Assembly (NCBI GenBank): GCA_023392205.1
Contig: JAEVZN010000397.1
Coordinates: forward strand, 1 to 14,801
Direction: 5' to 3'
DNA length: 14,801 bases
Source of the DNA: Pseudomonadota bacterium
GTDB taxonomy: Bacteria > Pseudomonadota > Alphaproteobacteria > Rhizobiales > Xanthobacteraceae
The position numbers and the translations under genes were made by a program. Below the pieces are notes generated by a model. It had not been told where the DNA came from. It did not search any database and worked only from the letters and a program-made list of their open reading frames with translations. This document shows, in pieces, positions 1 through 14,801 of the stretch. The stretch's first letter is position 1, and every line of letters starts with the position of its first letter.

Positions 1-15
1 AGGCTGACCCCCGTG

Positions 16-387: not shown

Positions 388-421
388 GGAAAACCAACCG
401 GAAACCCGCCGTTTTGGTTCC

Positions 422-1063: not shown

Positions 1064-1068
1064 CGTCG

Positions 1069-2256
1069 TCAGCCCGCAGAAGATACGTTCAGCGCTTCGC
1101 GCTTTGTATCACCGCTGAGAAGCGGCAGGGCAATCCGGATGAAACCGCCACCGAGCACGCGCGCCTGTCCGTCAGGCGCGTCGTAGAAGACACAGGCCTG
1201 CCCCGGCGCCACGCCGTCCTCGCCATCGATCAATTCCACCATGCAACCCTCCGGGCCGCGCATCAGCCAGGCCGGCTGTGGCGCGCGCGTGGAGCGGACC
1301 TTCACGAACACCTCGCGCCCTCCGCTATCGAGCAATGTGTCCAGCGTTCCGTCACCGATCCAGTTGATGTCGCGCAGACTGATGCGGCGCGTGCGCAGGG
1401 CGTCGCGCGGTCCGACAATCACCTGCCGCGTTGCCGGATCCAGACGCACCACATAGAGCGGCACACCCGTCGAGACGCCAAGTCCTTTGCGCTGCCCGAT
1501 GGTGAAATGGATGATCCCGTGATGCTGCCCGAGCACGCGGCCGTCCATGTCGACGATGTCGCCGGGATCGGCGGAGCCGGGCATCAGCTTCTCGATGATG
1601 TCGGTGTAACGGCCCTGCGGGACGAAGCAGATATCCTGGCTGTCTTCCTTGTCGGCCACGGTGAGTCCGAAGCGGCGCGCGGCGGCGCGGGTTTCGGATT
1701 TGGTCAGGTCGCCGAGCGGGAAGCGCAAGGTCTGCAGCTGATCGCCGGTTGTGGCGAACAGGAAATAGCTCTGGTCGCGCTCCTCCTCGCGGGCGCGGAA
1801 CAGGCCGCGGCTTCCGTCCGGCAAGGCGCGTGAGGAAATGTAATGGCCGGTGGCCATGACACCCGCGCCGAGATCCTTTGCGGTCTCGAGCAGGTCGCGG
1901 AACTTGATCGACTGGTTGCAGGAGATGCACGGCACCGGGGTTTCGCCAGCGACATAGCTCTCGGCGAAGCGGTCGATCACCTCTTCCTTGAAGCGGCTTT
2001 CATAGTCGAGGACGTAGTGCGGAATGCCGAGCGTCGCTGCCACGCTGCGCGCATCGTGGATGTCGCGCCCGGCGCAACAGGCGCCCTTGCGATGGGTCGC
2101 CTCGCCATGATCGTAGAGCTGCATGGTCACCCCGACCACGTCATAGCCCTCTTCCGCCAGCAAAGCTGCGGTGACCGACGAATCCACGCCGCCCGACATC
2201 GCCACTACGACGCGGGTGTCCTGCGGACGGCTATCGAGACCCAGTGAGTTCACCAT
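1069..2256 (-). CDS. mnmA: tRNA-specific 2-thiouridylase MnmA
   Basis: MnmA uses ATP and a relayed persulfide sulfur to make 2-thiouridine at wobble position 34 of Glu, Gln and Lys tRNAs. The 395-residue protein has the PP-loop SGGVDSS at residues 21-27. The two catalytic Cys of the family are present: Cys113 in SCNQSIKF and Cys210 in DSQDICFVP. The GHY motif is near 137 and the family's C-terminal beta domain follows. The frame opens further upstream to a GTG at 2292, but that codon overlaps an AAGGA sequence that could only serve as its own ribosome site, so I chose ATG at 2256. It is the first gene of the leftward unit and is divergent from fliK. Confidence 0.95.
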
Positions 2257-2421
2257 GGACGTCCGCGGCCGGGGCCTGTCAGCCCGCCGCACTCCTTGAA
2301 AAAGCTGACGATGTGTTCGGCGCGACGCCTGCTCCGCTGCCTTTTACAGGCGGATCGCCGGATCAGGCAATCGAGCAGACATATAGGAAGCCGTGGTGGG
2401 AATTTCCTGCCGGGTTCCGGT

Positions 2422-2433
2422 CGGTATTTGCCG
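2422..2433 (-). promoter_or_regulatory. Possible FlbD-binding (ftr-like) site upstream of fliK
   Basis: Read on the minus strand, this stretch gives CGGCAAATACCG. Its first nine bases match the core of the inverted repeat in the fliF promoter (CGGCAAATA in CGGCAAATATTGCC). It lies about 55 bases upstream of the sigma-54 element, a usual place for an enhancer-bound activator. Calling it an FlbD site is inference from the shared sequence and from FlbD's known control of late flagellar genes in Caulobacter. Confidence 0.4.
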
Positions 2434-2457
2434 CTCCAAACCAGGCCTGATTTTATC

Positions 2458-2470
2458 TAAATTATTGATC
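2458..2470 (-). promoter_or_regulatory. Possible IHF site between enhancer and sigma-54 promoter
   Basis: On the minus strand the sequence is GATCAATAATTTA. It fits the IHF consensus WATCARNNNNTTR at every fixed position except the first base. It sits between the FlbD-like site and the sigma-54 promoter, where IHF-induced bending is known to help Caulobacter flagellar sigma-54 promoters. The region is AT-rich, so a chance match is possible. Confidence 0.35.
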
Positions 2471-2487
2471 TAGCTTGTCTTTTTCTA

Positions 2488-2503
2488 TGGCGCAGCGTTT
2501 GCA
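2488..2503 (+). promoter_or_regulatory. Sigma-54 (RpoN) promoter for fliK-flgD
   Basis: TGGCGCAGCGTTTGCA matches the sigma-54 pattern TGGCAC-N5-TTGCW with one change (A to G in the -24 element). The GG and GC pairs have the required spacing. It ends 45 bases before the fliK start at 2549. Late hook genes in Caulobacter are transcribed by RpoN with FlbD, so the context supports the call. Confidence 0.7.
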
Positions 2504-2548
2504 AAGGGGTTTTGCACCTGAACGGAATTTTTCGTGGAGTTGGACTGC

Positions 2549-3985
2549 GTGACCAGCGTCGCTGCCGAAGCCCTGTATCTCTCGAAACGGATGGCGAAAA
2601 AACCCGCCAAAACCGAACCCGCTGCCGGAGCGGAAAGCGGATTCGCTAACCTCGTGGAGCGCCAGTCGGAGCCTGCCCGTCCGGCCGGAAGTGAGAAAAA
2701 CACAGCCGCACAATCCACGCGACCCGTCGCGCAGAAGGACAATTCGCGCCCCGCAGCGGCCTCCGAAAGCCCGCAGGCGAAACCGGAAAAGACAGACGAC
2801 GCGGCCACGGCCGACATTGCCGCCGCGCAGTCGAAAACGGCGGAGGCCGCCGTTGCGCCGGCCACGGTTGTGGTGACGGACATTGTCGCGCTGCCCGGCG
2901 AAGTCGAGGTCGGCGAGGCGGCGACCGAGGACATGAATGCGCCGGATGCAACGGCAGCCCCCGCTCCTGTGCCCGCCACGCCACCCGAAACCGTGCCGCC
3001 TTCCGTGACCGTGGGTCAGCCAGTGCCACCCGCCGATGCGGCCGAAGACCAGACCGAAGCTCAACACGATGACAGCGTAGCGATCCCCGCGCCGGTCGCC
3101 GCAGCCGCGCAGCAGGCATCGCAGCCGGAGCAGCCCGTCGATTCTACCGAAGCGCATCCCGCCGCACAAAAGGCTTTGGCCGATGCCGCAGCCCGTGCCG
3201 CCGCGCCGTCCACCGACGACGGCGATGACGCTGCCGATGCAGAGGACAGTACAGAATCGGCAGAGCCTGCCGCGGACGAGCAGCCGGCCGTTCGTGCCGC
3301 AGCCGACAAGGAACGGCCCGTCGAGGCGCGCAATGAGACACGCCATGCCGCCGTGGCGAAAGCACCGCCGCAGGCCGAGCAGCCTGCACAGCCGCGCAGC
3401 ACCACGCAGGAGCCTCTTGCCGACACCCTGAAAGTGTTCGACATAGGTGCTGCGGGCAAAGCCGGTGCAGAGTCGCTGCTCTCGGTCACGGGCCACGCCA
3501 CGCCACACGGCGCCGCGCCGGCCCAGGTATCGCCGCAGGCCGCGCCGGTCAGTGCCGCGCAACCCGTTCCGCTCAATGCCCTCGCCGTCGAGATTGCCGC
3601 GCAGGCCCGCGCCGGCAATTCGCGTTTCGAGATCCGCCTCGATCCGCCAGAACTCGGCCGGATCGATGTACGGCTCGATGTCGATCGCGACGGCAATGTC
3701 ACATCGCGGCTCGTGATCGAACGCGCCGATACCTACGATCTGCTGCGGCGCGATCAGTCGACGCTGGAGCGCGCCTTGCAGCAGGCAGGTCTCAAGACCT
3801 CGGAAAATTCCATGCAATTCTCGTTGCGCGACGAAGGTGCGAGCCAGAACCAGCGCGACCGCGACACCCCTGCCCCGCACATTACAGCAATTGTGACCGA
3901 CGGCGACGTCCCGACAGCGGAGGTTGCAGCGAATGGCTATGGCCGTTTGCTGGGCGGCCGCAGCGGCATCGACATCCGGATCTGA
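2549..3985 (+). CDS. fliK: Flagellar hook-length control protein FliK
   Basis: FliK is the secreted molecular ruler that ends hook growth and switches the flagellar export gate, via FlhB, to filament substrates. Residues from about 40 to 330 are a low-complexity, Ala/Pro/Glu-rich, probably disordered ruler region. The C-terminal Flg_hook domain follows at roughly residues 344-430, with the typical stretch RFEIRLDPPELGRIDVRLDV and a final helix ending near SMQFSLRD. The frame also has a GTG at 2534. I chose the GTG at 2549 because GTGGAG at 2534-2539 would serve as its ribosome site at good spacing; the earlier GTG has only a weak GGA upstream. The product is 478 residues (483 from the earlier GTG). 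flgD follows after 15 bases. Confidence 0.92.
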   Translation: MTSVAAEALYLSKRMAKKPAKTEPAAGAESGFANLVERQSEPARPAGSEKNTAAQSTRPVAQKDNSRPAAASESPQAKPEKTDDAATADIAAAQSKTAEAAVAPATVVVTDIVALPGEVEVGEAATEDMNAPDATAAPAPVPATPPETVPPSVTVGQPVPPADAAEDQTEAQHDDSVAIPAPVAAAAQQASQPEQPVDSTEAHPAAQKALADAAARAAAPSTDDGDDAADAEDSTESAEPAADEQPAVRAAADKERPVEARNETRHAAVAKAPPQAEQPAQPRSTTQEPLADTLKVFDIGAAGKAGAESLLSVTGHATPHGAAPAQVSPQAAPVSAAQPVPLNALAVEIAAQARAGNSRFEIRLDPPELGRIDVRLDVDRDGNVTSRLVIERADTYDLLRRDQSTLERALQQAGLKTSENSMQFSLRDEGASQNQRDRDTPAPHITAIVTDGDVPTAEVAANGYGRLLGGRSGIDIRI

Positions 3986-4000
3986 GGAAAGGCTGACACC

Positions 4001-4687
4001 ATGAGCACGATCGACGGCGTCGCAACCAATGTCAGTTCTGCAGTCACCAATTCGGGAACGGCCAGTGTCGCCCGGGATACGCTGGCCAGCAACTTCACGA
4101 CCTTTCTGCAATTGCTCACGACGCAACTGAAGAACCAGAATCCGCTGGACCCGCTCGACACGAACCAGTTCACGCAACAACTCGTCCAGTTCGCGCAGGT
4201 CGAACAGCAATTGAAGTCGAACGATCAATTGTCGGCGCTGGTATCGTTGCAGCAGACCGCACAATCCACGCAGGCGCTCGGCTTTGTCGGCCATACCGTG
4301 GCGATCGACGGCCAGACCGCGCGGCTGACGAACGGTCAGGCGGGATGGAGCTTCAATTCGCCCAAGCCTGCAGCGGCGACAATCAACATTCTCAACTCGA
4401 CCGGCGCCACCGTCTATTCGGGGACATTCTCGCTCAATACCGGCGTGCAGAATTTCGTGTGGGACGGCCGCAATACGTCAGGCACATTGCAGCCCGACGG
4501 CGAATACAAGATGACGATCAGCGCCAAGGACGCGGCGGGCCAGAACGTTTCGGTCTCCACCGAAATTCAGGGCATCGTCGATTCCGTGGACCTGTCGCAG
4601 AACCCGCCCATCCTCAATGTCGGCGGCACCGATTACACACTCGACAAGATCAAGCGCGTTGTCCGCCAGACAGGCACGGCGCTCTGA
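4001..4687 (+). CDS. flgD: Flagellar hook cap / basal-body rod modification protein FlgD
   Basis: FlgD caps the growing hook and is needed for FlgE subunits to assemble outside the cell. The 228-residue protein has the conserved N-terminal FlgD motif at about residues 30-73 (FLQLLTTQLKNQNPLDPLD, then QFTQQLVQFAQVEQQLKSN). It then has a beta-rich FLG/Ig-like domain with NFVWDGRNTSGTLQPDGEY near 147-167. There is no cleavable signal peptide, as expected for a flagellar type III substrate. GGAAAGG lies nine bases upstream of the ATG. It is second after fliK in a two-gene unit; the hook gene flgE is not next to it here. I see no hairpin terminator before sciP. Confidence 0.95.
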   Translation: MSTIDGVATNVSSAVTNSGTASVARDTLASNFTTFLQLLTTQLKNQNPLDPLDTNQFTQQLVQFAQVEQQLKSNDQLSALVSLQQTAQSTQALGFVGHTVAIDGQTARLTNGQAGWSFNSPKPAAATINILNSTGATVYSGTFSLNTGVQNFVWDGRNTSGTLQPDGEYKMTISAKDAAGQNVSVSTEIQGIVDSVDLSQNPPILNVGGTDYTLDKIKRVVRQTGTAL

Positions 4688-4707
4688 CGCTGCGCCCGGC
4701 CGCGACG

Positions 4708-4723
4708 TTTACACGTGATTAAG
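4708..4723 (+). promoter_or_regulatory. CtrA-type box, distal, upstream of sciP
   Basis: TTTA-N7-TTAAG differs from the CtrA consensus TTAA-N7-TTAA by one base in the first half. It lies 21 bases after the flgD stop and about 120 bases before the sciP ATG. CtrA binding is inferred. Confidence 0.4.
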
Positions 4724-4775
4724 ACCTCGCCTCCGGCGATGCTCCACACACACATTTCTCATTTGAGTGTTGCGC

Positions 4776-4791
4776 TTAGGCAAATCTTAAG
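4776..4791 (+). promoter_or_regulatory. CtrA-type box, proximal, upstream of sciP
   Basis: TTAG-N7-TTAAG differs from the CtrA consensus by one base in the first half. Its end lies 52 bases upstream of the sciP ATG, so it could overlap a -35 region. Known Caulobacter biology (sciP is activated by CtrA) supports the call. Confidence 0.55.
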
Positions 4792-4843
4792 CGGCGACAG
4801 CTACATTGCCGGGAGTATGTGGGTTGAGTGTGTGAGTGCAACC

Positions 4844-5119
4844 ATGACCGAACCTCATCGCCCGAGGGTCAAATATGTCATCGGGCCGGACGGTTCTCCG
4901 CTGACGATCGCGGACCTCCCTCCGCCTTCGACGAAGCGCTGGGTGATCCGCCGCAAGGCGGAAGTGGTTGCTGCCGTTCGCGGCGGCCTCCTCTCACTCG
5001 AAGAAGCCTGTCAGCGTTACACGCTGACGACGGAAGAATTTCTGTCCTGGCAATTTTCGATTGACCAGCACGGACTCGCGGGATTGCGCACCACGCGCAT
5101 TCAGCAATATCGCCAGTAA
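4844..5119 (+). CDS. sciP: SciP, small CtrA inhibitory protein (DUF1153)
   Basis: SciP in Caulobacter is a small helix-turn-helix protein made in swarmer cells. It blocks CtrA-dependent transcription after CtrA has switched genes on. This 91-residue protein has the very conserved family core: VKYVIGPDGSPLTIADLPPP at residues 9-28, KRWVIRRKAEVVAAVRGGLL at 31-50, then a helical YTLTTEEFLSW region that completes the helix-turn-helix. The frame is open back to 4715, but the upstream part is AT-rich promoter DNA with CtrA-type boxes. I chose ATG at 4844 because the family's N-terminus (Met-Thr-Glu, then basic residues) starts there. Its place between hook genes and fliF is the same as in Caulobacter. 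Confidence 0.93.
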   Translation: MTEPHRPRVKYVIGPDGSPLTIADLPPPSTKRWVIRRKAEVVAAVRGGLLSLEEACQRYTLTTEEFLSWQFSIDQHGLAGLRTTRIQQYRQ

Positions 5120-5242
5120 TCCGGCGCGGCAATTTCCGATTCGTCGGGGATTGGTGGCCGCGTCCGGTATGCGGCGGCGATAATCGGCTTTCCGACCGGG
5201 CCGCGGATCGATACACTTGCGCCCGTATCACCGGAGCGCTCC

Positions 5243-5647
5243 ATGATCACCAGACTGATCTTCGCCAGCCTTGCGGCTCTTTTTCTGGGCATGGCCCCGG
5301 CCTCGGCCCGTCAGCTCGCAGTCGGGGCGGCCGCCGGTTATGTCGAGCCGCCCGGATATGTCGCGGTTCCGGTCTATACCTGGCCGAACCGCCGCGCCTG
5401 GACACCCGCCGATACCAGCATGGGCTATGTCTTCCGGGAGCCGGTTTATTCGACCCCCCGGGGTTACCGTTACGTCTATGTCCGCGGCTATTACTGGAAG
5501 CGGCTGCCGGTCAAGTCCGCGCCGCGCAAATACCGGCGTGTGGTGAAGACGAGCACGGCGCCGGTCCGCCGGGTCAAGCCGCGGCGCGCGCCCTGTGTGA
5601 CCGATCTGGGCTATGGCCGTCACGAGCTGTGCGGCCGGTATTACTGA
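5243..5647 (+). CDS. Small secreted Tyr/Arg-rich protein, function unknown
   Basis: I do not recognise this 134-residue protein. Residues 1-22 form a clear signal peptide ending in ASA, with cleavage before RQLAVG. The mature part is short, basic and rich in Tyr, Pro and Arg (for example GYRYVYVRGYYWKRLP), with two Cys near the C-terminus in CVTDLGYGRHELC that could form a disulfide. Such proteins are usually periplasmic or outer-membrane associated. GGAG lies eight bases before the ATG. It stands alone between sciP and fliF and is followed by a strong terminator, so it is probably its own unit. Any link to the flagellum is only positional. Confidence 0.75.
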   Translation: MITRLIFASLAALFLGMAPASARQLAVGAAAGYVEPPGYVAVPVYTWPNRRAWTPADTSMGYVFREPVYSTPRGYRYVYVRGYYWKRLPVKSAPRKYRRVVKTSTAPVRRVKPRRAPCVTDLGYGRHELCGRYY

Positions 5648-5677
5648 CGCTGCCGCAAAGAGAGAATCACTGACCGG

Positions 5678-5704
5678 AAAGGCGGGCCTCGACCCGCCTT
5701 TTTT
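5678..5704 (+). terminator. Rho-independent terminator
   Basis: A nine-base-pair stem (AAAGGCGGG pairing with CCCGCCTTT) encloses a six-base loop and runs into TTTTTT. It lies 30 bases after the stop of the secreted protein gene and 70 bases before the fliF CtrA box, so it insulates the fliF promoter from upstream transcription. Confidence 0.9.
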
Positions 5705-5773
5705 CATGTCTCGGCGGATCTTCCACACGCCTGCAACCCTTCGGCAACCCAAAACAGGACTTCGTTACCGGAG

Positions 5774-5815
5774 TTAACGAAAAAGAAACCATACGGGCGG
5801 CAAATATTGCCCAGT
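5774..5815 (+). promoter_or_regulatory. fliF operon promoter: CtrA-type box and palindromic operator
   Basis: The region reads TTAA (5774-5777), seven bases, GAAACCATA (5785-5793), five bases, then GGCAAATATTGCCCAGT (5799-5815). The first part resembles the CtrA pattern TTAA-N7-TTAACCAT with two changed bases. GGCAA-ATA-TTGCC is an inverted repeat with five-base arms placed in the core promoter. In Caulobacter, CtrA activates fliF and FlbD represses it from a site called ftr4. I infer that this inverted repeat is the equivalent. The same layout recurs at flhA. Confidence 0.7.
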
Positions 5816-5848
5816 TCGGGTGACGGCGCCCGCGGTGGGGAATTGTCG

Positions 5849-7504
5849 GTGCAAGGTCTTGTCGAGTTCGTCAAAACTTTGGGTGCGACTCGCCTCATGG
5901 CCATGGCTGCCGTTGCGGCGGCGCTGATCGGCTTTTTCGCCTTCATCATCCTGCGGGTCACGGCGGTGCCGATGACGCCGCTGTTCACGGATCTGACCTT
6001 CGAGGATTCCTCGGCCATCATCCGCGACCTTGAGCGGCAGGCCGTGCCCTACCAGACGCGAAATGACGGCGCGATCATCCTGGTGCCCAAGGATACGGTG
6101 ACACGCCTGCGCATGAAGCTTGCCGAGGGCGGACTGCCGAAAGGCGGCGGCGTCGGCTACGAAATCTTCGACAAGTCGGATGCCCTGGGCGCCACCAGTT
6201 TCGTCCAGAATATCAATCACCTGCGCGCGCTCGAGGGTGAATTGGCGCGCACCATCCGCTCAATCGACCGCGTCGCTGCGGCCCGCGTCCACCTGGTGCT
6301 GCCGGAGCGGCCCTTGTTCTCGCGCGAGCGTCAGGAGCCTTCGGCCTCCATCGTGCTGAAACTGCGCGGCTCGCTTGATGCGCCGCAGGTCCGCGCCATC
6401 CGGCATCTGGCGGCCTCCGCTGTCAACGGGCTGAAGCCCAACCGGGTGTCGATCGTCGACGAAGCCGGGCGCCTTCTGGCCGACGGCGCCGACGACGGCA
6501 GCGCCGGATTGGGTGCCGGCGCCGAGGAGCGCAAGGCCGCCTTCGAGCGGCGGCTGCGCGAGCAGGTCGAGAATATCGTCACCTCGGTGGTCGGTCCGGG
6601 GCGGGCGCGTGTGCAACTGACCGCCGATTTCGACTTCAACCGCATCACCCAGACCACCGACCGATTCGACCCGGATGGCCGCGTGGTGCGATCGAGCCAG
6701 ACCCGCGAGGAAACGCTGGCCTCGTCCGAGGCGAAGGAAGGCCAGGTCACGGTTGGCAACGAATTGCCGGGCGCGGCACAGAACCAGGGCGCGAACGCGG
6801 GCCATCGCAGCGACAACCGCAAGAGCGAAGAAATCGTCAATTACGAGATCTCGCGCACCACCAAGACTGAAGTGATCGAGGGCGGCCGGGTGAACCGCAT
6901 CTCGGTGGCCGTGCTGGTGGATGGAGTGTACGCCCGCAACGATCGTGGGGAATCGGTCTACACGGCGCGCGAAAAGGACGAACTGGACCGGATCGGCGCG
7001 CTGGTGCGCTCCGCGATCGGCTTCGACCAGAAGCGCGGCGATCAGGTCGAGATCGTCAACCTGCGCTTTGCGGAATTGCCGCAGAACCTGTTCAACGAAT
7101 CGAACGGCATTTTCGATCTGCCCGCGCTCACCCGCGACGACCTGATGCGCGCTATCGAAATGGTGGTGATGGGCATTCTCGGCCTGATCGTCCTTTTCTT
7201 CGTGGTGCGGCCGCTGGTGCGCAAGATCGTCACGCCGGACAGCCCGGCCGGGACGCAGATCGCCGATGGCAGCGGCGCGCTGCTGGCCGGCAGCGCCATG
7301 GCCCTACCCGGCGGGCCGAACGTCGAAATCGTCGGCAGCGACCAGAATGTCGCCATCACCAACCACACCTCCGCGATGATCGACATCGCCAAGGTGCAGG
7401 GGCAGGTGCACGCCCAATCGGTTCAAAAGGTCGGCGAACTGGCCGACCGCAATCCGCACGAGACGGTCGCCATCATCCGTCAATGGCTCCACGAGACGGC
7501 ATAG
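5849..7504 (+). CDS. fliF: Flagellar MS-ring protein FliF
   Basis: FliF forms the MS ring in the inner membrane, the base on which the switch and export gate assemble. The protein is 551 residues, normal for the family. Membrane segment 1 is at about residues 14-36. The YscJ/FliF ring domain follows, including GGLPKGGGVGYEIFDKSDALG and ARVHLVLPERPLFSRE. Membrane segment 2 is at about 433-455. The cytoplasmic tail ends in NPHETVAIIRQWLHE, the FliG-binding helix. The frame extends back to a TTG at 5807, but that lies inside the promoter palindrome. I chose GTG at 5849, which has TGGGGA eight bases upstream. It is the first of five genes in the operon, and fliG begins right at its stop. Confidence 0.96.
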   Translation: MQGLVEFVKTLGATRLMAMAAVAAALIGFFAFIILRVTAVPMTPLFTDLTFEDSSAIIRDLERQAVPYQTRNDGAIILVPKDTVTRLRMKLAEGGLPKGGGVGYEIFDKSDALGATSFVQNINHLRALEGELARTIRSIDRVAAARVHLVLPERPLFSRERQEPSASIVLKLRGSLDAPQVRAIRHLAASAVNGLKPNRVSIVDEAGRLLADGADDGSAGLGAGAEERKAAFERRLREQVENIVTSVVGPGRARVQLTADFDFNRITQTTDRFDPDGRVVRSSQTREETLASSEAKEGQVTVGNELPGAAQNQGANAGHRSDNRKSEEIVNYEISRTTKTEVIEGGRVNRISVAVLVDGVYARNDRGESVYTAREKDELDRIGALVRSAIGFDQKRGDQVEIVNLRFAELPQNLFNESNGIFDLPALTRDDLMRAIEMVVMGILGLIVLFFVVRPLVRKIVTPDSPAGTQIADGSGALLAGSAMALPGGPNVEIVGSDQNVAITNHTSAMIDIAKVQGQVHAQSVQKVGELADRNPHETVAIIRQWLHETA

Positions 7505-8608
7505 GTGGCGGATATGGCAAACACTCCCGACAAGCAGAATAACGGCCCGACCGATATCGCGAGTGTCCTCGCGACCCTCGCGACCCGCCAGGCCGAGAAT
7601 GCCAAGCCGACACGGCAATTGTCCGGTCCCGAGCGCGCCGCCGTCCTGATGCTGGCGCTGGGCGATCAATATGGCGGCAAGATCTGGGAGATGCTGGACG
7701 ACGACGAATTGCGCGAACTCTCGATCTGCATGTCGACGCTGGGCAACATCGAGGCTGCGACGGTCGAGCAATTGCTGCTGGAATTCGTGAGCCGGCTGTC
7801 GGCTTCCGGTTCGCTGATGGGCAATTACGAGGCAACCGAGCGGCTGCTGCAGCAATTCCTGCCGCCCGAGCGGGTCGGCGGCATCATGGACGAGATTCGC
7901 GGACCGGCCGGCCGCAACATGTGGGAGAAGCTCTCCAACGTCCAGGAGGACGTGCTCGCCAATTACCTGAAGAACGAATATCCGCAGACCATCGCCGTGG
8001 TGCTGTCCAAGCTGCGACCGGAACATGCCGCGCGCGTGCTGTCCATACTGCCCGAGGATCTGGCGCTCGATGTGGTCAACCGCATGCTACGGATGGAAGC
8101 GATCCAGAAGGAAGTGATCGATCGCGTCGAGCAGACGCTGCGTACCGAATTCATGTCGAATATCTCCAAGACGCGGCGTCGCGACGCGCACGAGGTCATG
8201 GCGGAGATATTCAACAATTTCGACCGGCAGACAGAGACCCGCTTCATCACCTCGCTGGAAGAGGACAACCGGGATTCGGCGGAGCGTATCAAGGCGCTGA
8301 TGTTCACCTTCGACGATCTGGTCAAGCTCGATGCCGGTTCGGCGCAGACGCTCATGCGCAATATCGACAAGGACAAGCTCGCCATCGCGCTCAAGGGCGC
8401 ATCCGAGCCTGTCCGGCAATTCTTCTTCAGCAACATGTCGACGCGCGCCGCCAAGATGCTGGGCGACGACATGGAGGCGCTCGGTCCGGTGCGGCTGCGC
8501 GATGTCGACGAGGCGCAGGTGTTGCTGGTCAACATGGCCAAGGACCTTGCCGCCAAGGGCGAACTCATCATCACCAAGCAGCGCGGCGACGAGGAGCTCG
8601 TCTATTGA
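7505..8608 (+). CDS. fliG: Flagellar motor switch protein FliG
   Basis: FliG binds FliF and is the rotor face that meets the MotA stator, so it takes part in torque and switching. The product is 367 residues, slightly longer than usual because of an N-terminal extension of about 35 polar residues before [15 protein letters not shown]. The middle domain has [21 protein letters not shown]. The C-terminal domain carries the charged torque helix ([18 protein letters not shown]) and ends with the conserved [10 protein letters not shown] region. A GTG at 7505 follows the fliF TAG directly. An ATG at 7514 in the same frame, behind AGGTGG, could be the real start, giving 364 residues. The last base of the stop is shared with the first base of the fliH ATG. 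Confidence 0.96.
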
Positions 8609-9231
8609 TGGGCGCCCCGGCCAAATTCATGTTCGACCTCGATTTTGCAGCGCCCAAGCCGCAAAACACCGCCATGCCGCTGGCCGATCACCAGGCCAAG
8701 CTGGCGGAAGCGGAAAGCCGTGGCTATCGCAAGGGCTTTGCGGAGGGTCAGCGCGAAGCGGAGGCCGAAACCTCACGCCGCATGGCGATGGCGATGGAAG
8801 ATCTGGCGCGCTCGCTCGATACGCTGTCGCGCGGATTGTCCGGGATCGAACAGAGGGTCGAGGCGGAAGCCGTCGAGGTCGCCCTTGCCACCGGACGCAA
8901 GCTGTCCGCCGAACTGATCGCGCGCGAACCCTTCATGGAGATCGAGGCGCTGGCGGCGGGATGCTTCCGCGATCTTGTCGGCATTCCGCATGTGGTCGTG
9001 CGCATCAACGACGCGCTGTATGCCGAAGCGCAGACGCGGCTCACCGAGATCGCTCGCACCACCGGCTTTGACGGCCGTCTGCTGATCCTTGCCGAGCCCG
9101 ATATCGCGGTCGGCGATTGCCGCATCGAATGGGCCGATGGCGGAATCACCCGCGAACAGGCCAGGACCGAAGCGCAGATCGACGAGACGGTGAAGCGGTT
9201 CGTCATCGCACGGCGTGCCGGAGAGATTTGA
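8608..9231 (+). CDS. fliH: FliH-type flagellar export regulator (FlbE)
   Basis: FliH-type proteins hold the export ATPase FliI and link it to the C-ring through FliN. In Caulobacter the gene at this place is called flbE. The 207-residue product has an N-terminal FMFDLDF motif, then a predicted coiled coil at about 30-80 rich in Ala, Glu and Arg (including RGYRKGFAEGQREAEAE). A C-terminal domain follows with VVVRINDALYAEAQ and a DCRIEWADGG motif, as in FliH/YscL. The start overlaps the fliG stop (TGATG), which indicates translational coupling. The frame extends far upstream inside fliG but that part is not coding. fliI is not in this window. Confidence 0.88.
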   Translation: MGAPAKFMFDLDFAAPKPQNTAMPLADHQAKLAEAESRGYRKGFAEGQREAEAETSRRMAMAMEDLARSLDTLSRGLSGIEQRVEAEAVEVALATGRKLSAELIAREPFMEIEALAAGCFRDLVGIPHVVVRINDALYAEAQTRLTEIARTTGFDGRLLILAEPDIAVGDCRIEWADGGITREQARTEAQIDETVKRFVIARRAGEI

Positions 9232-9249
9232 AAGTGAAAGGTCCAGACG

Positions 9250-9606
9250 ATGAGTGACAACGAGGCCAAAGTGCCCTTCCCCAATCTGGAGGCCGGCGGT
9301 GGCGGCGCCCCCGACATCACGCTGGCGCCGATCGGCGAACCGGAAGCCGCCGGCATGACCGCGGCCGACCTCGAAGCTATTTTCGACGTGCCGGTACAGG
9401 TGTCGGCGGTGCTGGGCCGCTCGCGCATGGATGTCAGCGACCTGCTGCGGCTCGGACCCGGTGCCGTGCTCGAACTGGACCGAAAGGTCGGCGAAGCGAT
9501 CGACATCTATGTCAACAACCGCCTGATCGCGCGCGGCGAAGTGGTGCTGGTCGAGGAGAAGCTCGGCGTGACCATGACCGAAATCATCAAGGCCGACCGG
9601 GGATGA
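9250..9606 (+). CDS. fliN: Flagellar motor switch protein FliN
   Basis: FliN forms the lower part of the C-ring, taking part in switching and docking the FliH-FliI complex. The protein is 118 residues, with a short acidic, Gly/Pro-rich N-terminal part of about 35 residues. The SpoA domain then has the family motifs: IFDVPVQVSAVLGRSRM, DLLRLGPGAVLELDR, IYVNNRLIARGEVVLVE and GVTMTEII. GAAAGG precedes the ATG. It lies 18 bases after fliH and 46 bases before flbD in the same operon. Confidence 0.96.
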   Translation: MSDNEAKVPFPNLEAGGGGAPDITLAPIGEPEAAGMTAADLEAIFDVPVQVSAVLGRSRMDVSDLLRLGPGAVLELDRKVGEAIDIYVNNRLIARGEVVLVEEKLGVTMTEIIKADRG

Positions 9607-9652
9607 CGATGACCACGCACATCCTCAAAAACGAGAATGAAGGATAGGACCG

Positions 9653-11020
9653 ATGCGCCTCCTGATCGTCGGAACCCTGAAAGGCCAGCTCACGCTCGCC
9701 ACCAAATACGCCATGGACAAGGGCGCGAGCGTCACGCATGCGGACGGGATCGCGCAGGCGCTGGCCGTCCTGCGGTCGGGGCGCGGTGCGGATCTGCTGA
9801 TGGTCGACGTCGCTGTCGATATCGCAAGCCTGATCGCGCAACTGACAAACGAACATATTCACGCGCCGGTCGTGGCTTGCGGCATCGAGAATAACGCCCG
9901 CGCGGCCGTCGCCGCCATCCATGCGGGCGCCAAGGAATACATCCCGCTGCCGCCCGATCCGGAAATGATCGCAGCCGTGCTCGCCGCCGTCGCCAATGAC
10001 GACCGCGAAATGGTCTGGCGCGACGAATCCATGGGGCATGTGGTCAAGCTCGCCCAGCAGATTGCAGGCTCGGATGCCTCGGTGCTGATCACCGGCGAGA
10101 GCGGCACCGGAAAGGAAGTGCTGGCGCGCTATGTGCACACCCGCTCCCGCCGCGCCAACAAGCATTTCATCAGCGTCAATTGCGCCGCCATCCCCGAAGC
10201 CCTGCTGGAATCCGAATTGTTCGGCCACGAGAAGGGCGCCTTTACCGGGGCCATCGCGCGCCGCATCGGCAAGTTCGAGGAAGCCAATGGCGGCACGCTG
10301 CTGCTGGACGAAGTCTCGGAAATGGATGTGCGGCTGCAGGCCAAGCTCCTGCGCGCCATTCAGGAGCGGGTGATCGACCGGGTCGGTGGCACCAAGCCGG
10401 TGCCGGTGGATATCCGCATCATCGCCACCTCGAACCGCAATCTCGTCGAGGCCGCCCGCAATGGCAGCTTCCGCGAAGACCTGCTGTTCCGGCTCAATGT
10501 CGTCAATCTGCGGCTGCCGCCCCTGCGCGAACGGCCCCAGGATGTGATCGCGCTGGCGGAACATTTCATCGCCAAATATTCGGCGGCGAACGGATTGCCA
10601 ATGCGGTCGCTCTCGGCCGAGGGACGCAAGGCGCTGGCGCACAAGAGCTGGCCGGGCAATGTGCGCGAACTGGAAAACATGCTGCATCGCGCGGTGCTGC
10701 TCACATCCGATGCAGAGATCGGGCCGGACGCGCTCGTGACGCCGGACGGCATGCGCCTCGACGCGGCGGCGTCGGATGTGGCCTCGCATGCGGCCGTCGC
10801 GGCCGAACAGGTCACGCGCGGTCTGGTCGGCCGGACGGTGGCCGATGTGGAACGCGATCTCATTCTGGAAACGCTGAAGCATTGCCTCGGCAACCGGACC
10901 CATGCCGCCAATATCCTCGGCATTTCCATCCGCACCCTGCGCAACAAACTCAACGAATATGCCGGCGACGGTGTCGCCGTCCCGGCCCCGCATGGCGGCG
11001 AAGTCCGCATGGCGGGATAG
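9653..11020 (+). CDS. flbD: FlbD, sigma-54-dependent flagellar transcription regulator
   Basis: FlbD activates late flagellar sigma-54 promoters and represses fliF in Caulobacter; its activity is coupled to assembly through FliX. The 455-residue protein has three parts. Residues 1-120 form a degenerate receiver: Asp52 is at the phosphorylation position, but the acidic pair near residue 8 is replaced by Gly-Thr and the conserved Lys near 99 is missing. The AAA+ domain has Walker A GESGTGKE at 148-155, the sigma-54 contact loop GAFTGA at 195-200, Walker B LLLDE at 216-220, and Arg274 and Arg280 in FREDLLFRLN. A Fis-type helix-turn-helix lies near 420-445 (NRTHAANILGISIRTLRNKL). AAGGATAGG precedes the ATG. 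It is the last gene of the fliF operon. Confidence 0.94.
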   Translation: MRLLIVGTLKGQLTLATKYAMDKGASVTHADGIAQALAVLRSGRGADLLMVDVAVDIASLIAQLTNEHIHAPVVACGIENNARAAVAAIHAGAKEYIPLPPDPEMIAAVLAAVANDDREMVWRDESMGHVVKLAQQIAGSDASVLITGESGTGKEVLARYVHTRSRRANKHFISVNCAAIPEALLESELFGHEKGAFTGAIARRIGKFEEANGGTLLLDEVSEMDVRLQAKLLRAIQERVIDRVGGTKPVPVDIRIIATSNRNLVEAARNGSFREDLLFRLNVVNLRLPPLRERPQDVIALAEHFIAKYSAANGLPMRSLSAEGRKALAHKSWPGNVRELENMLHRAVLLTSDAEIGPDALVTPDGMRLDAAASDVASHAAVAAEQVTRGLVGRTVADVERDLILETLKHCLGNRTHAANILGISIRTLRNKLNEYAGDGVAVPAPHGGEVRMAG

Positions 11021-11087
11021 TCGAATTAATTCTGAACACACCGGCTCGTTTGCGTATTATACAATTAGACCGCCACAAAGGGCCGAA
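11021..11087 (+). promoter_or_regulatory. Possible promoter and leader of the DUF488 gene
   Basis: This AT-rich spacer follows the flbD stop. TATTAT at 11055-11060 is a fair -10 element, and TGAACA at 11033-11038, 16 bases upstream of it, is a weak -35 candidate. AAAGGG at about 11077-11082 serves as ribosome site for the ATG at 11088. There is no terminator hairpin after flbD, so read-through from the flagellar operon is also possible. Confidence 0.35.
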
Positions 11088-11615
11088 ATGAATACGATTT
11101 TTACTATCGGATATGAAGGAACTGACATAGCTCAGTTTTTATCGACACTGTCGTCGGAGCGAATTCAGTTGCTTGCGGACGTGCGGGCGATAGCTATCTC
11201 CCGCAAGAAGGGCTTCTCAAAAAATGCTCTTCGTCACTCGTTGTCGCAGGCCGGAATTGAATATCAGCACTTCGTCGATCTAGGCGACCCCAAGGAAGGC
11301 CGAGAAGCCGCGCGAGCCGGCCGCTTTGCACAGTTTCACAAAGTCTACAGCAATCATCTCGGAAGCCCTTCGGCGCAAGCAGCATTGTCGCAATTAATTG
11401 ACGCATCGACACAATTTCGAACCTGCCTCATGTGCTTCGAGCGAGAACCGGCGAGTTGTCATCGAACTCTAGTAGCCGAAGCAATGTCTCAACATGGTAT
11501 AATGATCGCGAATCTATTTAGCAGATTAGATTTGCACAATGCTGGGATCAGTAAGAAGCTGCCGAGTGGCAATTTTGATCAAAGCAATTCCACGGGCCAG
11601 CAAGAAATACGGTGA
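11088..11615 (+). CDS. DUF488 family protein
   Basis: The 175-residue protein has the hallmarks of the DUF488 family. TIGYEG lies at residues 6-11. LLADVRAIAISRKKGFSK at 28-45 is the usual Asp-Val-Arg then Ser-Arg motif. GIEYQHFVDLGDP follows near 56-68. The Cys/His motif CFEREPASCHR is at 116-126, with a further Cys113. The biochemical role of DUF488 is not established. The conserved Asp, Arg, Cys and His look like an active or metal site, but that is inference. ATG at 11088 has AAAGGG upstream, and the frame before it is flbD sequence and spacer. Its codons are AT-richer than in the flanking genes. The next gene overlaps its 3' end in another frame. Confidence 0.85.
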   Translation: MNTIFTIGYEGTDIAQFLSTLSSERIQLLADVRAIAISRKKGFSKNALRHSLSQAGIEYQHFVDLGDPKEGREAARAGRFAQFHKVYSNHLGSPSAQAALSQLIDASTQFRTCLMCFEREPASCHRTLVAEAMSQHGIMIANLFSRLDLHNAGISKKLPSGNFDQSNSTGQQEIR

Positions 11616-12303
11616 AACGGTTTGTTGTGCAGGTGCCACCGATAGCGGCGAGTGGCGGCGACTTTACCCTGTCCGATTTCGTCAATTAGCCGGCGAGGGG
11701 CAGTTTTCCCGCTGGGACATAGTAAGCTTCAATTATCGCCGACCAAGAGATGATGTTCGGTATGAAAGTTGTCACGTCTTTGAGGACACCATATTAGTTG
11801 AAGGAGAGGTCCCGCCAAATCGTCGAGCCGAATTTCTCGATCGGCTTCTCGTTGGGTCAGCAAGAATAGCAGCTTCAAAAAGGCAATCGTTGGCACTCAT
11901 CCGACCTAAGAACGTGCGGTTCATTTTTAAGAAAAAAAAGCCAGCAGCCATTGACGCCGAAAAGGCGCTTTTCGTCAAAGCAGGTAGGCAGACATCCTTT
12001 CTAGATGCAGACCTTGAGGCATTAGACCCCGTGCCTTACGCATTCGCTTTTCGCTTCGAAGACGATGACGGCCAACACACCTATCAATGCGGAGATTGGG
12101 AGACTCAGGCAACCTTTTGGAAATGGAAAAGGACCTACGGGGAGCAACGCGCACTCCAAGACCTTTCTGCCAGATACAACGATGAGTATCCAAAGAAAGG
12201 CCTAGCATTTGCGCTCGGAAATGTCCTGAAACGTCCGCATACGTGGCAGCTGCTTGGCGTAATTCGAGCGGACGATAAGTTCCAGACTAGCTTCTCGTTT
12301 TAA
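11539..12303 (+). CDS. Conserved-looking hypothetical protein paired with DUF488
   Basis: This 254-residue protein has no family name I can give. Its features are: a basic N-terminal stretch LIKAIPRASKKYGETVCCAG near 13-32 with two adjacent Cys; WRRLYPVRFRQL near 39-50; a WD-SFNYRRP stretch near 59-69; a Lys run at 131-134; and a C-terminal region with HTYQCGDWETQATFWKW near 180-196 and RPHTWQLLGVIRAD near 232-245. Many aromatic and basic residues suggest nucleic acid contact, but this is only a guess. ATG at 11539 overlaps the DUF488 gene by 77 bases in another frame. A GTG at 11566 would shorten the protein to 245 residues and may be the true start. Neither has a strong ribosome site, so coupling to DUF488 translation is likely. 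Confidence 0.75.
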   Translation: MLGSVRSCRVAILIKAIPRASKKYGETVCCAGATDSGEWRRLYPVRFRQLAGEGQFSRWDIVSFNYRRPRDDVRYESCHVFEDTILVEGEVPPNRRAEFLDRLLVGSARIAASKRQSLALIRPKNVRFIFKKKKPAAIDAEKALFVKAGRQTSFLDADLEALDPVPYAFAFRFEDDDGQHTYQCGDWETQATFWKWKRTYGEQRALQDLSARYNDEYPKKGLAFALGNVLKRPHTWQLLGVIRADDKFQTSFSF

Positions 12304-12319
12304 GAGAGCGCGACCTGAA

Positions 12320-12667
12320 ATGACCTCAATTTATAAAATACTCCCATTGGCTCTCTGGCAGGAAGCGCAGCACGCCGGCCGGTTTGACGGCTCCGCCGTC
12401 GATCTCGCCGACGGCTATATCCATTTCTCCACCGCAGAGCAGGCTGCCGAAACCGCAGCCAAACACTTTGCTGGTCAGACCGATCTGGTGCTCCTGCAGG
12501 TCTCCGCAGATGCGCTGGGCGATGCCCTGAAATGGGAGCCGTCGCGCGGCGGGGCGCTGTTTCCGCATCTTTATGACCGGCTGGACGTGGCCCATGTGAC
12601 GGCCGCGCATCCGCTGCCACTCGGCGACGACGGGCGGCATGTATTTCCCGAGATGCTACAGGCCTGA
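12320..12667 (+). CDS. DUF952 family protein
   Basis: The 115-residue cytosolic protein matches DUF952. IYKILPLALWQEA is at the N-terminus, then DLADGYIHFSTAEQAAETAAKH at about 28-49, LVLLQVSADAL, and the signature LKWEPSRGGALFPHLYDRL at about 73-91. The family fold resembles ADP-ribose-handling proteins in some descriptions, but no activity is established. The first ten or so codons are AT-rich (TCA, ATT, TAT, AAA, ATA) like the insert to the left, and the rest is GC-rich like the chromosome, so the insert boundary may lie in its 5' end. It starts 16 bases after the preceding stop. Confidence 0.88.
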   Translation: MTSIYKILPLALWQEAQHAGRFDGSAVDLADGYIHFSTAEQAAETAAKHFAGQTDLVLLQVSADALGDALKWEPSRGGALFPHLYDRLDVAHVTAAHPLPLGDDGRHVFPEMLQA

Positions 12668-12696
12668 CGCCCGCCGGCCTTCCACGGATTGAACAG

Positions 12697-13776
12697 ATGA
12701 AAACCACGATCGTTTTGGCATGTGCCGTCACACTGACATGCAGCTTTGACGCACAGGCGCAGGAAGCCCGCCAGTTCCGCGACTGGTATGCGGCGTGCGA
12801 TAATCTGCGCAATTGCAGCGCCTATGGCTTCGGAACGCAGGACGCGAGCCCTTCCGCCTATCTGCGGATCGAGCGCGGCGCATCCCCGGATGCCGTCGCG
12901 GCGCTCACGATCACAGTCGATATGTCCTCCGGATCGACCTTCGGATTGCAATTCGACGACCGGACCCTGCCCGGCCTGCCTTCCGGCAATCTCCGCGGCG
13001 AAGAAGGCGACGGCCATGACATGCGCCGGGTTCGCATCCAGCTCACGCCCGCACTGGTGGCGTCCATGCGCAAGGCGAAGGCGATCGTAGTGACGCGGAC
13101 CGATCCGCCGGCCCGCAAGCTGGATGCCGGCGATCGCCGCTCGACGATTTCGATGTCGGGTGCCACCGCTGCGCTGTTGTGGATCGACGACCGGCAGCAA
13201 CGCCTCGATACGCCGACGGCATTCGTCCGTAGCGGCGGCAAGGCGCCCGATGCCATGCTGCCGCTGCCGGCAGCGCCGGTGATCGTCGCGGCAAAGCCCC
13301 AATCCGGAACGGCGCCGAAACCCGACCCGGCAATCCTTGCGCAGGTCCGAAAGGTCTGCGAGGGCGACGACAGAGCCGCGCTGGAGGATTCGGCGGCACT
13401 CTCTCCCACCCTTTTCCTTTATTCGTATGCATGTCCGGACATGAGCGGCGCCTACAACATGAATGGCGTTTTCATGATCGTGGCCGCCGGCAATCCCAAA
13501 GCCGCGCGCGCCGTCGATTTCGTCTGGCCGTTCAAGATGGCAGATCAGCCGCAGGACCACCCGCGTACCCTCGCGACGAATGCGTCGTTCGACCCCAAGA
13601 GCATGGAATTGCAGACCTTCAACAAGGGCCGCGGGATCGGCGATTGCGGCACGGCGGAGACCTGGGTGTTCGACGGTCGTGCTTTCCGCCTGGCCGAATT
13701 GAGCATGATGTCTGAATGCATGGGCGTCCCGCCGGACGATTGGCCGGTCCTGTATCGCGCCGAGGTCCGGCGCTAG
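12697..13776 (+). CDS. DUF1176 exported protein
   Basis: The 359-residue protein starts with a signal peptide (residues 1-22, ending in AQAQ) and is expected in the periplasm. The mature N-terminus FRDWYAACDNLRNCSAYGF at about 27-45 is the DUF1176 signature, with its two Cys likely forming a disulfide. Further Cys pairs lie in the C-terminal half (VRKVCEGDD, YACPDMSG, IGDCGTAE and SECMG), consistent with oxidative folding. The family is found in proteobacteria and has no assigned function. ACGGA lies upstream of the ATG. It follows the DUF952 gene by 29 bases and may be cotranscribed. It faces the thioesterase gene tail to tail, with 16 bases between the stops and no terminator visible there. 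Confidence 0.85.
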   Translation: MKTTIVLACAVTLTCSFDAQAQEARQFRDWYAACDNLRNCSAYGFGTQDASPSAYLRIERGASPDAVAALTITVDMSSGSTFGLQFDDRTLPGLPSGNLRGEEGDGHDMRRVRIQLTPALVASMRKAKAIVVTRTDPPARKLDAGDRRSTISMSGATAALLWIDDRQQRLDTPTAFVRSGGKAPDAMLPLPAAPVIVAAKPQSGTAPKPDPAILAQVRKVCEGDDRAALEDSAALSPTLFLYSYACPDMSGAYNMNGVFMIVAAGNPKAARAVDFVWPFKMADQPQDHPRTLATNASFDPKSMELQTFNKGRGIGDCGTAETWVFDGRAFRLAELSMMSECMGVPPDDWPVLYRAEVRR

Positions 13777-13792
13777 CTCCTACCGCCCGGCG

Positions 13793-14236
13793 TCAGAGCA
13801 GCGCATAGGCGCTCGACACCATCGCCACCGGCTTTGCATCGGACGCACTGGACAAGATCACACGCCCGAACGCCATGCTCTTGCCCAGCCGCACGATGCG
13901 CGCATCCGCCAGCACGTCGGTGCCGACAGCGGGCTTGAGGAAATGCGTGGTCTGGTCGACCGTGGTCATCGGGCAATAGCTGCCCGCTGCGGCCGACACC
14001 GCAAACACCATCGCGGTATCGGCAAACGACATCAGTGCCTGGCCGCAGATGATGCCGCCCTCCCGGCACAGCCGGTCCGAATAGGCCATCCGCAGCAATG
14101 CTCCCGCACCGGCAGGATCGTCCGCGCCGAAGATGGCGTCCACGCGCAGCGACAGGTCCTGCACCCAGGGCGCGAAGACCTGTTCCAGCAATTGCTGTGC
14201 GGCGTCGGGCGAAAACCCGCCTTGCGTCCCGGCCAT
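13793..14236 (-). CDS. PaaI-type hotdog-fold thioesterase
   Basis: The 147-residue protein fits the PaaI/YbgC class of acyl-CoA thioesterases, which hydrolyse acyl- or aryl-CoA thioesters. The region REGGIICGQALMSFADTAMVFAV at about 60-82 corresponds to the hotdog central helix with its catalytic-site Gly pair and Asp. TTVDQTTHFLKPAVGTDVLADARIVRLGKSM follows as the family beta strands. The His usual before the second Gly is Ile-Cys here, so activity is not certain. The frame extends to 14311, inside the flhA promoter. I chose ATG at 14236, which has GGGGGA five bases upstream. It is divergent from flhA. Confidence 0.8.
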   Translation of the reverse strand: MAGTQGGFSPDAAQQLLEQVFAPWVQDLSLRVDAIFGADDPAGAGALLRMAYSDRLCREGGIICGQALMSFADTAMVFAVSAAAGSYCPMTTVDQTTHFLKPAVGTDVLADARIVRLGKSMAFGRVILSSASDAKPVAMVSSAYALL

Positions 14237-14260
14237 CGAATCCCCCTTCGGACAAGACAG

Positions 14261-14270
14261 GTTAACGCTT
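14261..14270 (+). promoter_or_regulatory. Additional GTTAACGCTT half-site upstream of flhA
   Basis: GTTAACGCTT occurs here and again at 14292-14301, exactly 31 bases apart, about three turns of the helix. The second copy is part of the main CtrA-type box. The first lies in the spacer between the divergent thioesterase and flhA and could be a second CtrA contact. Confidence 0.4.
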
Positions 14271-14292
14271 TCGCGCCCTCCGGCCAGCCTCG

Positions 14293-14334
14293 TTAACGCT
14301 TCGCTAACCATAAGGCAGGCAAATATTGCCCAGT
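14293..14334 (+). promoter_or_regulatory. flhA promoter: CtrA-type box and palindromic operator
   Basis: TTAA (14293-14296), seven bases, CTAACCATA (14304-14312), five bases, then GGCAAATATTGCCCAGT (14318-14334). The box differs from TTAA-N7-TTAACCAT by one base. All spacings and the 17-base downstream sequence are identical to the fliF promoter. The palindrome ends 16 bases before the flhA ATG, so the leader must be very short. Confidence 0.7.
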
Positions 14335-14346
14335 GGCGGAGACACC

Positions 14347-14801
14347 ATGACCGACGTACCTGCGAGCCCGCCGGCCAGCCGCTTCACGCTGCCGACGCTG
14401 CACGAGATGACCAGCCTGTTGCGCCGCGGCGATCTCATGCTCGCCATCGGCGTGCTGACCATTCTGGTCGTCCTGATCCTGCCGCTCCCGCCGGTGGGCC
14501 TGGACCTGTTTCTGGCAGTGTCGATCACGATCTCGGTGCTGGTCCTGATGACCGCGCTGTTCATTCATACGCCGCTCGAATTCTCGTCCTTCCCGACGGT
14601 GCTGCTGATCGCCACCATGCTACGGCTGGCGCTCAATCTCGCATCGACCCGCCTGATCCTCGCCAACGGCCATGAAGGGCCGGCGGCGGCGGGACACGTG
14701 ATCGAAGCCTTCGGCCGGTTCGTCATGGGCGGCAACTTCGTCATCGGCGTCATCGTCTTCGCGATCCTGATCATCGTGAACTTCGTCGTGATCACGAAGG
14801 G
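14347..14801 (+). CDS. flhA: Flagellar export gate protein FlhA (5' part, cut by window end)
   Basis: FlhA is the large inner-membrane protein of the flagellar type III export gate, using the proton motive force and docking chaperone-substrate complexes. Only the first 151 codons are present. The short cytoplasmic N-terminus has [17 protein letters not shown]. Membrane segments lie at about residues 30-48 and 52-70, and another begins near 130. The conserved cytoplasmic loop [20 protein letters not shown] and the FHIPEP-family signature [10 protein letters not shown] (about 93-102) are clear, and the window ends in FVVITKG. GGCGGAG lies five bases before the ATG. In Caulobacter this gene (also called flbF) is an early CtrA-controlled gene. 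Confidence 0.96.

Follow-up and report, generated by a model that had tools for sequence, protein, structure and literature searches.

A DUF488 gene and its near-obligate neighbor, a probable OB-fold protein, as a candidate mobile conflict module in an alphaproteobacterial flagellar locus

We analyzed a stretch of 14,801 nucleotides (hereafter the window; contig JAEVZN010000397.1, positions 1 to 14,801, assembly GCA_023392205.1, Xanthobacteraceae) in which two overlapping genes, one encoding a DUF488 protein and the other a protein hereafter called the partner, lie between the flagellar genes flbD and flhA. The two genes almost certainly constitute a real two-gene unit, and likely serve as mobile cargo in genetic conflict. 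On balance, we favor the reading that the pair is a mobile conflict module of the PADLOC candidate type PDC-M19, in which an OB-fold partner would recruit a DUF488 enzyme to nucleic acid and thereby disable a competitor. A preliminary description, made from the sequence alone, had suggested that the genes act as a unit and form a small mobile system; the first suggestion was borne out by their adjacency elsewhere, and the second by plasmid, phage and viral carriage, low guanine-plus-cytosine (GC) content and patchy presence.

Co-occurrence and gene order of DUF488 and the partner

On genome contigs, DUF488 was found directly upstream of the partner, overlapping or abutting it, in 77 of 80 loci (in one of the 77, L022, DUF488 lies in two frames). 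The exceptions were L058, at a contig end, and L070 and L073, where a transposase-like frame was seen by eye just upstream of the partner and about 1.5 kb upstream of it, respectively. For plasmids and phages, 18 of the 33 records with a match were used (17 of 26 plasmids and 1 of 7 phages), and an adjacent DUF488 was present in 15 of these 18, the others being two partner fragments (L118, L119) and the Sulfolobus plasmid pSOG2 (L106), which showed no DUF488 in the 9 kb examined. Viral contigs, which include near copies (L161, L162), had an adjacent DUF488 in 46 of 47 loci (34/34 and 12/13, the miss being a contig end). The partner thus neighbors DUF488 well beyond the window, as had been anticipated, and the pairing was found in bacteria and in one archaeal plasmid. 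In even draws of genomes, each including a center genome picked for having the partner, the partner occurred in 10 of 398 Pseudomonadota and 5 of 199 Planctomycetota (phylum by the title of L076), every one with an adjacent DUF488. A draw centered on the genome behind L070 (titled Anaerolineae) returned already sampled Pseudomonadota and was left out of the counts.

The partner goes with DUF488, but DUF488 does not need the partner. DUF488 (E ≤ 1e-20 to alignment A2, which comprises 43 proteins: the window protein and those of 42 of the 77 loci with DUF488) was present in 50 of the 398 Pseudomonadota genomes, including all 10 partner carriers. Among the best 30 DUF488 loci, the top 8 (207-249 bits) were partner-linked and the remaining 22 (171-188 bits) partner-less; two further partner-linked DUF488s scored lower (G607, 137 bits; G029, 105 bits), so the DUF488 score alone cannot separate partner-linked from partner-less proteins. 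In a DUF488 tree, 20 of the 22 partner-less rows (L204-L225) fell into one clade, and L210 and L215, placed among partner-linked DUF488s, may have lost a partner.

Three gene orders were observed. Most loci have DUF488 before the partner; the reverse order was seen in L140 and in two plasmids of cyanobacteria (L111, L121), and a convergent one in plasmids of alpha-, beta- and gammaproteobacteria and of actinobacteria, in a Gordonia phage, in viral contigs, and in L127 and L148. In co-directional relatives the open frames, taken without regard to start codons, almost always overlap. In convergent viral pairs the 3' ends of the open frames overlap by 44-47 nucleotides in 9 of 12, and the annotated genes of convergent plasmid pairs range from an 8-nucleotide gap (pRL8) to a 62-nucleotide overlap.

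Trees were built for chosen subsets of loci (107 rows for DUF488; 85 rows for the partner, as a quick tree without bootstrap). Well-supported branches of the DUF488 tree require three or more changes to explain the convergent order. One 30-row DUF488 clade (98/86) contains 24 co-directional, 4 convergent (L107, L116, L183, L193) and 2 partner-less members, whereas the partners of the same four convergent loci fall into a 19-row convergent clade (Shimodaira-Hasegawa-like approximate likelihood ratio test 100), apart from a 53-row co-directional clade. By this conflict between the trees, the genes appear to have been re-paired once with their adjacency kept. The DUF488 and partner distances correlate (r = 0.817; 75 loci, with L022 and L052 excluded; 0 of 1000 permutations), in a comparison that ignores the kinship of the species.

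Predicted folds and conserved residues

The DUF488 protein scored above both curated Pfam cutoffs, for PF04343 (E 4.5e-29; 102 bits against a gathering score of 22.2) and for PF22751, "Active DUF488-N3 subclade" (DUF488-N3a; 34.6 bits against a cutoff of 27). The best of the 4 PADLOC models matched was PDLC04505 of PDC-M19A (E 4.6e-33, 112.9 bits), with weaker matches to PDC-M45B (E 1.1e-23) and PDC-M45C. To our knowledge, this large family has no established activity. Across alignment A2, D31, R33, C116, E118, C124, H125 and R126 were invariant (43/43) and V32 was conserved at ≥90%; the Asp-Val-Arg and Cys-x7-Cys-His-Arg (C116...C124-H125-R126) motifs, to which attention had been drawn earlier as catalytic or metal-binding in appearance, are therefore present with every residue but V32 invariant. 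An AF2 model (predicted local distance difference test, pLDDT, 88.8; predicted template modeling score, pTM, 0.79) suggested a Rossmann-like domain in which the invariant Cys-x-Glu...Cys-His-Arg loop lies between strand 112-116, with C116 at the strand end, and helix 125-134, and the loop is predicted to be catalytic. The closest PDB folds were the N-domains of tetrapyrrole and diphthine-synthase-type methylases, with weak fold scores. Sequence searches of solved structures, with DUF488 alone and with its alignment, gave no usable match.

DUF488 is fused to DNA-binding domains in some lineages, as Xre-HTH-DUF488 and as ParB_N-HTH_ParB-DUF488. Separately, about 170-200 residues matching no Pfam family precede the DUF488 domain in L137, L139 and L130, all partner-linked. 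The DUF488 protein of Gordonia phage Nymphadora is gp42 (L104:6849-7301; PF04343 E 1.2e-29), convergent with the partner gp43 and bearing the annotator's note "HipA toxin, toxin-antitoxin system?".

The partner matched PDLC04508 of PDC-M19B (E 2.8e-38, residues 8-250) and phrog_25907 (E 2.6e-28), and had no Pfam match with E ≤ 1; its homologues numbered 844 in total, with 120 listed. It is a probable tandem OB-fold protein (RPA/SSB/HIN-like) by its AF2 model (pLDDT 87.6; pTM 0.86). The structural test covered the first OB domain, which received good scores. In 29 diverse partners D72, R74, E76, S77, D186 and W187 were invariant and E188 was conserved at ≥90%. No usable match came from a search of solved-structure sequences with the partner alignment; across this search and those with DUF488, one ribosomal L19e row (E 0.74) was set aside as chance. 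An identity with Tus (TIGR02648; E 0.075) was rejected as far under that model's cutoff. Structure prediction, proposed earlier as a check on both proteins, returned a tentatively Rossmann-like DUF488 and, in the partner, a modeled first OB domain.

Mobility, neighboring genes and the flagellar locus

The pair has a GC content of 0.498 versus 0.642 for the rest of the window, where every other pair-sized stretch is higher (lowest 0.596), and a GC content at third codon positions of 0.49 and 0.48 in its two genes versus 0.81 in flbD and 0.84 in fliF, in keeping with the composition shift first described. Among 61 loci flanked on both sides by 3 kb or more (near copies kept), the GC of the pair was under that of its flanks in 58, and in 46 it ranked in the lowest tenth of its locus. 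Within a single genus, Mesorhizobium according to the title of L034, 9 of 146 genomes have the pair, center genome included. The partner was found on 26 plasmid records (13 typed conjugative, 3 archaeal) and in 7 Gordonia phage records; in Nymphadora, the one phage examined, the immunity repressor and the integrase flank the pair. A search for DNA-level relatives of the pair on plasmids returned none.

Neighbors were compared at the 42 loci left after removal of close partner copies, between near genes (up to two on each side; 144 of 164) and far genes (>6 kb away; 148 of 162), both reduced by random trimming. Near genes included Resolvase (serine; 6), Phage_integrase (4) and N6_N4_Mtase (6) by Pfam, and type III methyltransferase (4), AbiEi (1) and a DNA cytosine methylase by PADLOC. 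Resolvase, Phage_integrase, N6_N4_Mtase, type III methyltransferase and AbiEi were absent from the families listed for the 148 far genes (the first 25 per list, except for the full PADLOC list of far genes). The far Pfam list was topped by AAA_24, ribosomal L28 and response regulators, with a single phage capsid among its entries. PADLOC models matched numbered 93 for near genes versus 16 for far genes, counts that overstate the difference because one methylase matches many models; the 16 were single matches, some of defense type (RecD-like, PycC, PD-T4-7, mad3, dCTPase and four PDC systems). On the earlier question of whether the pair sits in mobile or defense islands, the observations are its occurrence on mobile elements and near resolvase, integrase, methyltransferase and AbiEi genes.

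The four type III systems near the pair are probably one lineage. The order in L016 (7672-15827) is serine recombinase, 136-residue open reading frame (ORF), pair, type III Mod and type III Res; genes resembling these in size and place were seen in L006, L024 and L037. A ParB-N6/N4-methylase fusion adjoins the pair in L059, and a HEPN/Toprim-associated gene adjoins it on a Pseudomonas plasmid (L113:7449-8747). On a Saccharolobus shibatae plasmid (L114:4951-7364) a ParB_N-HTH_ParB-DUF488 gene stands just before the partner gene. In this plasmid and in L106 (5992-7349), both from Sulfolobales, the partner is followed by a protein of 163-168 residues with a PD-(D/E)XK-nuclease-like motif seen by eye, which found no support from any Pfam family.

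The flbD-flhA interval was compared with 23 flbD-like loci from other genomes. The gene flhA follows flbD within 500 bp in 21 of these (match distance 20-137 bp in 20, and 491 bp in L085) versus 3.3 kb in the window; the two loci apart are L083, a 36% paralogue without flhA, and L090, which shows no flhA in its 1.5-kb flank. By this spacing the interval is an insertion relative to distant relatives, the FlbD identity of the 21 being 63-72%, a comparison well above the level of strains. The pair was not at this site in the relatives examined, and genomes G002 and G003 combine a short flbD-flhA interval with a pair elsewhere (L010, L063). A FlbD search in viral contigs gave no match. The preliminary description of the pair as inserted between flbD and flhA accordingly stands at this distance, but the pair accounts for only part of the additional DNA. 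The 21 relatives with close flhA also have no room for DUF952, DUF1176 and the minus-strand ORF. With these three genes of ordinary GC content also extra, the pair may have entered an already open site, or all five genes may have arrived in steps.

A Pfam scan of 7 window proteins (a subset of the window ORFs) gave no transposase or integrase family, in agreement with what had been noted at first. Direct repeats, considered as insertion scars, were imperfect short pairs, none bracketing the pair as a unit, and a 17-nucleotide tandem near-repeat (82%) at the flbD 3' end (10988-11021) is probably due to chance. Both frames of the pair are intact and carry the residues invariant in their respective alignments (Table 1). 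The start of the DUF488 frame was taken as an ATG. The partner start is supported by the shared alignment column at which many homologues begin, which gives the 77-nucleotide overlap; an alternative in-frame GTG at 11566 would make it 50 nucleotides, the two ends of the range originally given. Promoter and terminator scans around the pair were near chance level, and a single sigma-70-like match at 11033-11060 is no promoter evidence because shuffles average 1.1. In the protein database, the partner protein of the window is recorded on 3 contigs, of which the largest has 20,805 bases.

Table 1. Positions of the pair, its motifs and its flanking genes in the window
Feature	Position	Strand	Basis or remark
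flbD	stop at 11020		upstream neighbor of the pair
AT-rich leader, flbD stop to DUF488 start	11021..11087	+	sequence
DUF488 protein, 175 residues, PDC-M19A type	11088..11615	+	Pfam PF04343, PF22751; PADLOC; AF2 model
D31-V32-R33 motif of DUF488	11178..11186	+	alignment
Predicted active-site loop of DUF488, C116-x-E118...C124-H125-R126	11433..11465	+	alignment and model
Partner, 254 residues, PDC-M19B type, probable tandem OB-fold protein	11539..12303	+	PADLOC, phrog_25907, AF2 model
Overlap of DUF488 and partner reading frames, 77 nucleotides	11539..11615	+	open frames
Partner first OB domain, about residues 1-98	11539..11832	+	model
Partner D72-x-R74-x-E76-S77 motif	11752..11769	+	alignment
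Partner second OB-like domain, about residues 118-243, less certain	11890..12267	+	model
Partner D186-W187-E188 motif	12094..12102	+	alignment
DUF952, DUF1176, minus-strand ORF	12320-14311		3' of the pair, before flhA; normal GC
flhA reading frame	translated from 14335

Proposed mechanism, alternatives and known systems

We propose that the two proteins would form a complex in which the partner, by binding nucleic acid that is single-stranded or exposed in some other way, brings the DUF488 enzyme to it. The predicted Cys/His/Arg phosphate-binding loop (C116/H125/R126) would then modify an end, a sugar or a phosphate of the nucleic acid by adding or removing a covalent group, and this covalent change would put a competing element's DNA (or RNA) out of action, a use in conflict for which phages, plasmids and islands may carry the pair. 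It is reasonably probable that DUF488 is an enzyme acting on nucleic acid with recruitment by the OB-fold protein, and action on nucleic acids, raised in the preliminary description, appears likely. The chances that the pair protects the cell or element that carries it from phage or other DNA are about even: the earlier suggestion of defense gains from the match of both genes to PDC-M19, but a role in the service of the element competes with it. The good structural scores are limited to the first OB domain of the partner, the second being less certain, and phages and plasmids, which the competing role would serve, often carry the pair.

In that competing role, the pair would process or protect the DNA of its own mobile element during entry, replication or packaging, or against restriction, and would not defend the host. 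Its neighbors in viral contigs are compatible with this: the 149 genes compared (of 185, of which 176 passed a size filter; 33 of the 47 viral loci) included 12 DNA methyltransferases, 11 ParB-like proteins and 5 terminase small subunits. So are its positions between DUF932/RadC genes and an SSB gene on a Sulfitobacter plasmid and near toprim and helicase genes on pRL8, settings which we take to resemble the leading or maintenance regions of plasmids. In conjugative elements, other OB-fold proteins are reported to act in transfer (PMC11137577, PMC12614216). Some loci, on the other side, lie on contigs titled chromosome (L007, L031), which counts weakly as surrounding integrated elements are possible, and some lie beside restriction-modification, AbiEi and DNA cytosine methylase genes, which also counts weakly. 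We regard service to the element as the less likely explanation, though one to be taken seriously.

An extended form of the defense reading is unlikely: a widespread immune module of bacteria and archaea, with re-pairable subunits, whose RPA- or HIN-like tandem OB protein would sense exposed foreign DNA and direct DUF488 modification of ends or sugars. We know of no immune system that uses covalent modification of DNA ends or sugars by a Cys-loop enzyme. A toxin-antitoxin pair, one protein harmful and the other neutralizing it, would account for small overlapping genes, plasmid and phage carriage and patchy presence, as well as for the phage annotator's query on gp42; convergent order is nevertheless common (12/13 contigs of one viral set; 9/18 plasmid and phage loci), which suits a coupled toxin-antitoxin operon poorly, and both protein families are well conserved and keep certain polar residues invariant, leaving this explanation improbable. 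That the two are housekeeping genes of the host, adjacent but unrelated in role, with a composition shift that reflects weak expression only, is very hard to credit: partner-less DUF488s are common (22 of the 30 DUF488 loci examined), so that DUF488 as such is no marker of the module, but partners without an adjacent DUF488 are rare, the pairing holds in three gene orders and in bacteria and one archaeal plasmid, and the flbD-flhA interval of relatives lacks the pair.

For part of DUF488, the near-obligate partner with its predicted nucleic-acid-binding fold, the DNA-binding fusions and the mobility lead to a testable hypothesis, that of a two-subunit nucleic-acid enzyme of genetic conflict. 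The pair is a small, self-contained candidate for bench work, with named residues to change.

Among known systems, the DUF488 model is similar to the rhodanese-phosphatase superfamily, defined by a Cys at the end of the strand before a loop, in its tentatively Rossmann-like fold, its invariant Cys at a strand end, the loop and a His-Arg at the helix start; it differs in that the fold scores are weak and a usable sequence match to a solved structure is lacking. The N-domain of tetrapyrrole/diphthine-synthase-type methylases was reportedly placed in this superfamily by Burroughs and Aravind in 2023. Within DUF488, the 22 partner-less proteins examined from Pseudomonadota mostly form a clade of their own. 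For the partner, no sequence relation was found to tandem OB-fold binders (RPA, CST, telomere end-binding proteins, LEF-3) or to HIN-200 DNA sensors, and template modeling scores across both domains were low (about 0.1-0.4); its invariant DxRxES and DW motifs set it apart from OB-fold binders of single-stranded DNA, in which we know of no such motifs. An archaeal ParB-CTPase-DUF488-HTH fusion with reported binding of cytidine triphosphate (CTP) is described in PMC12704722. The S. shibatae plasmid unit is similar to the fusion described there, but the DUF488 of the window is without the ParB part, so the CTP binding says nothing direct about it.

The closest known system is PDC-M19 of PADLOC, in that the window holds an A-type match, a B-type match and their adjacency, and no window feature departs from it; DUF488 additionally matches PDC-M45B and PDC-M45C, more weakly. 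A literature search, confined to the papers available to us, returned no account of this pair and no match for "PDC-M19", and one match, PMC11687729, was discarded as concerning DUF4880, not DUF488. PDCs are candidates from guilt-by-embedding and still unvalidated, as stated in PMC12988326. As both genes match PDC-M19A and PDC-M19B, the kind is already catalogued, although uncharacterized, and to it our analysis adds the probable OB-fold nature of the partner, the DNA-binding fusions, the changes of gene order and the apparent re-pairing.
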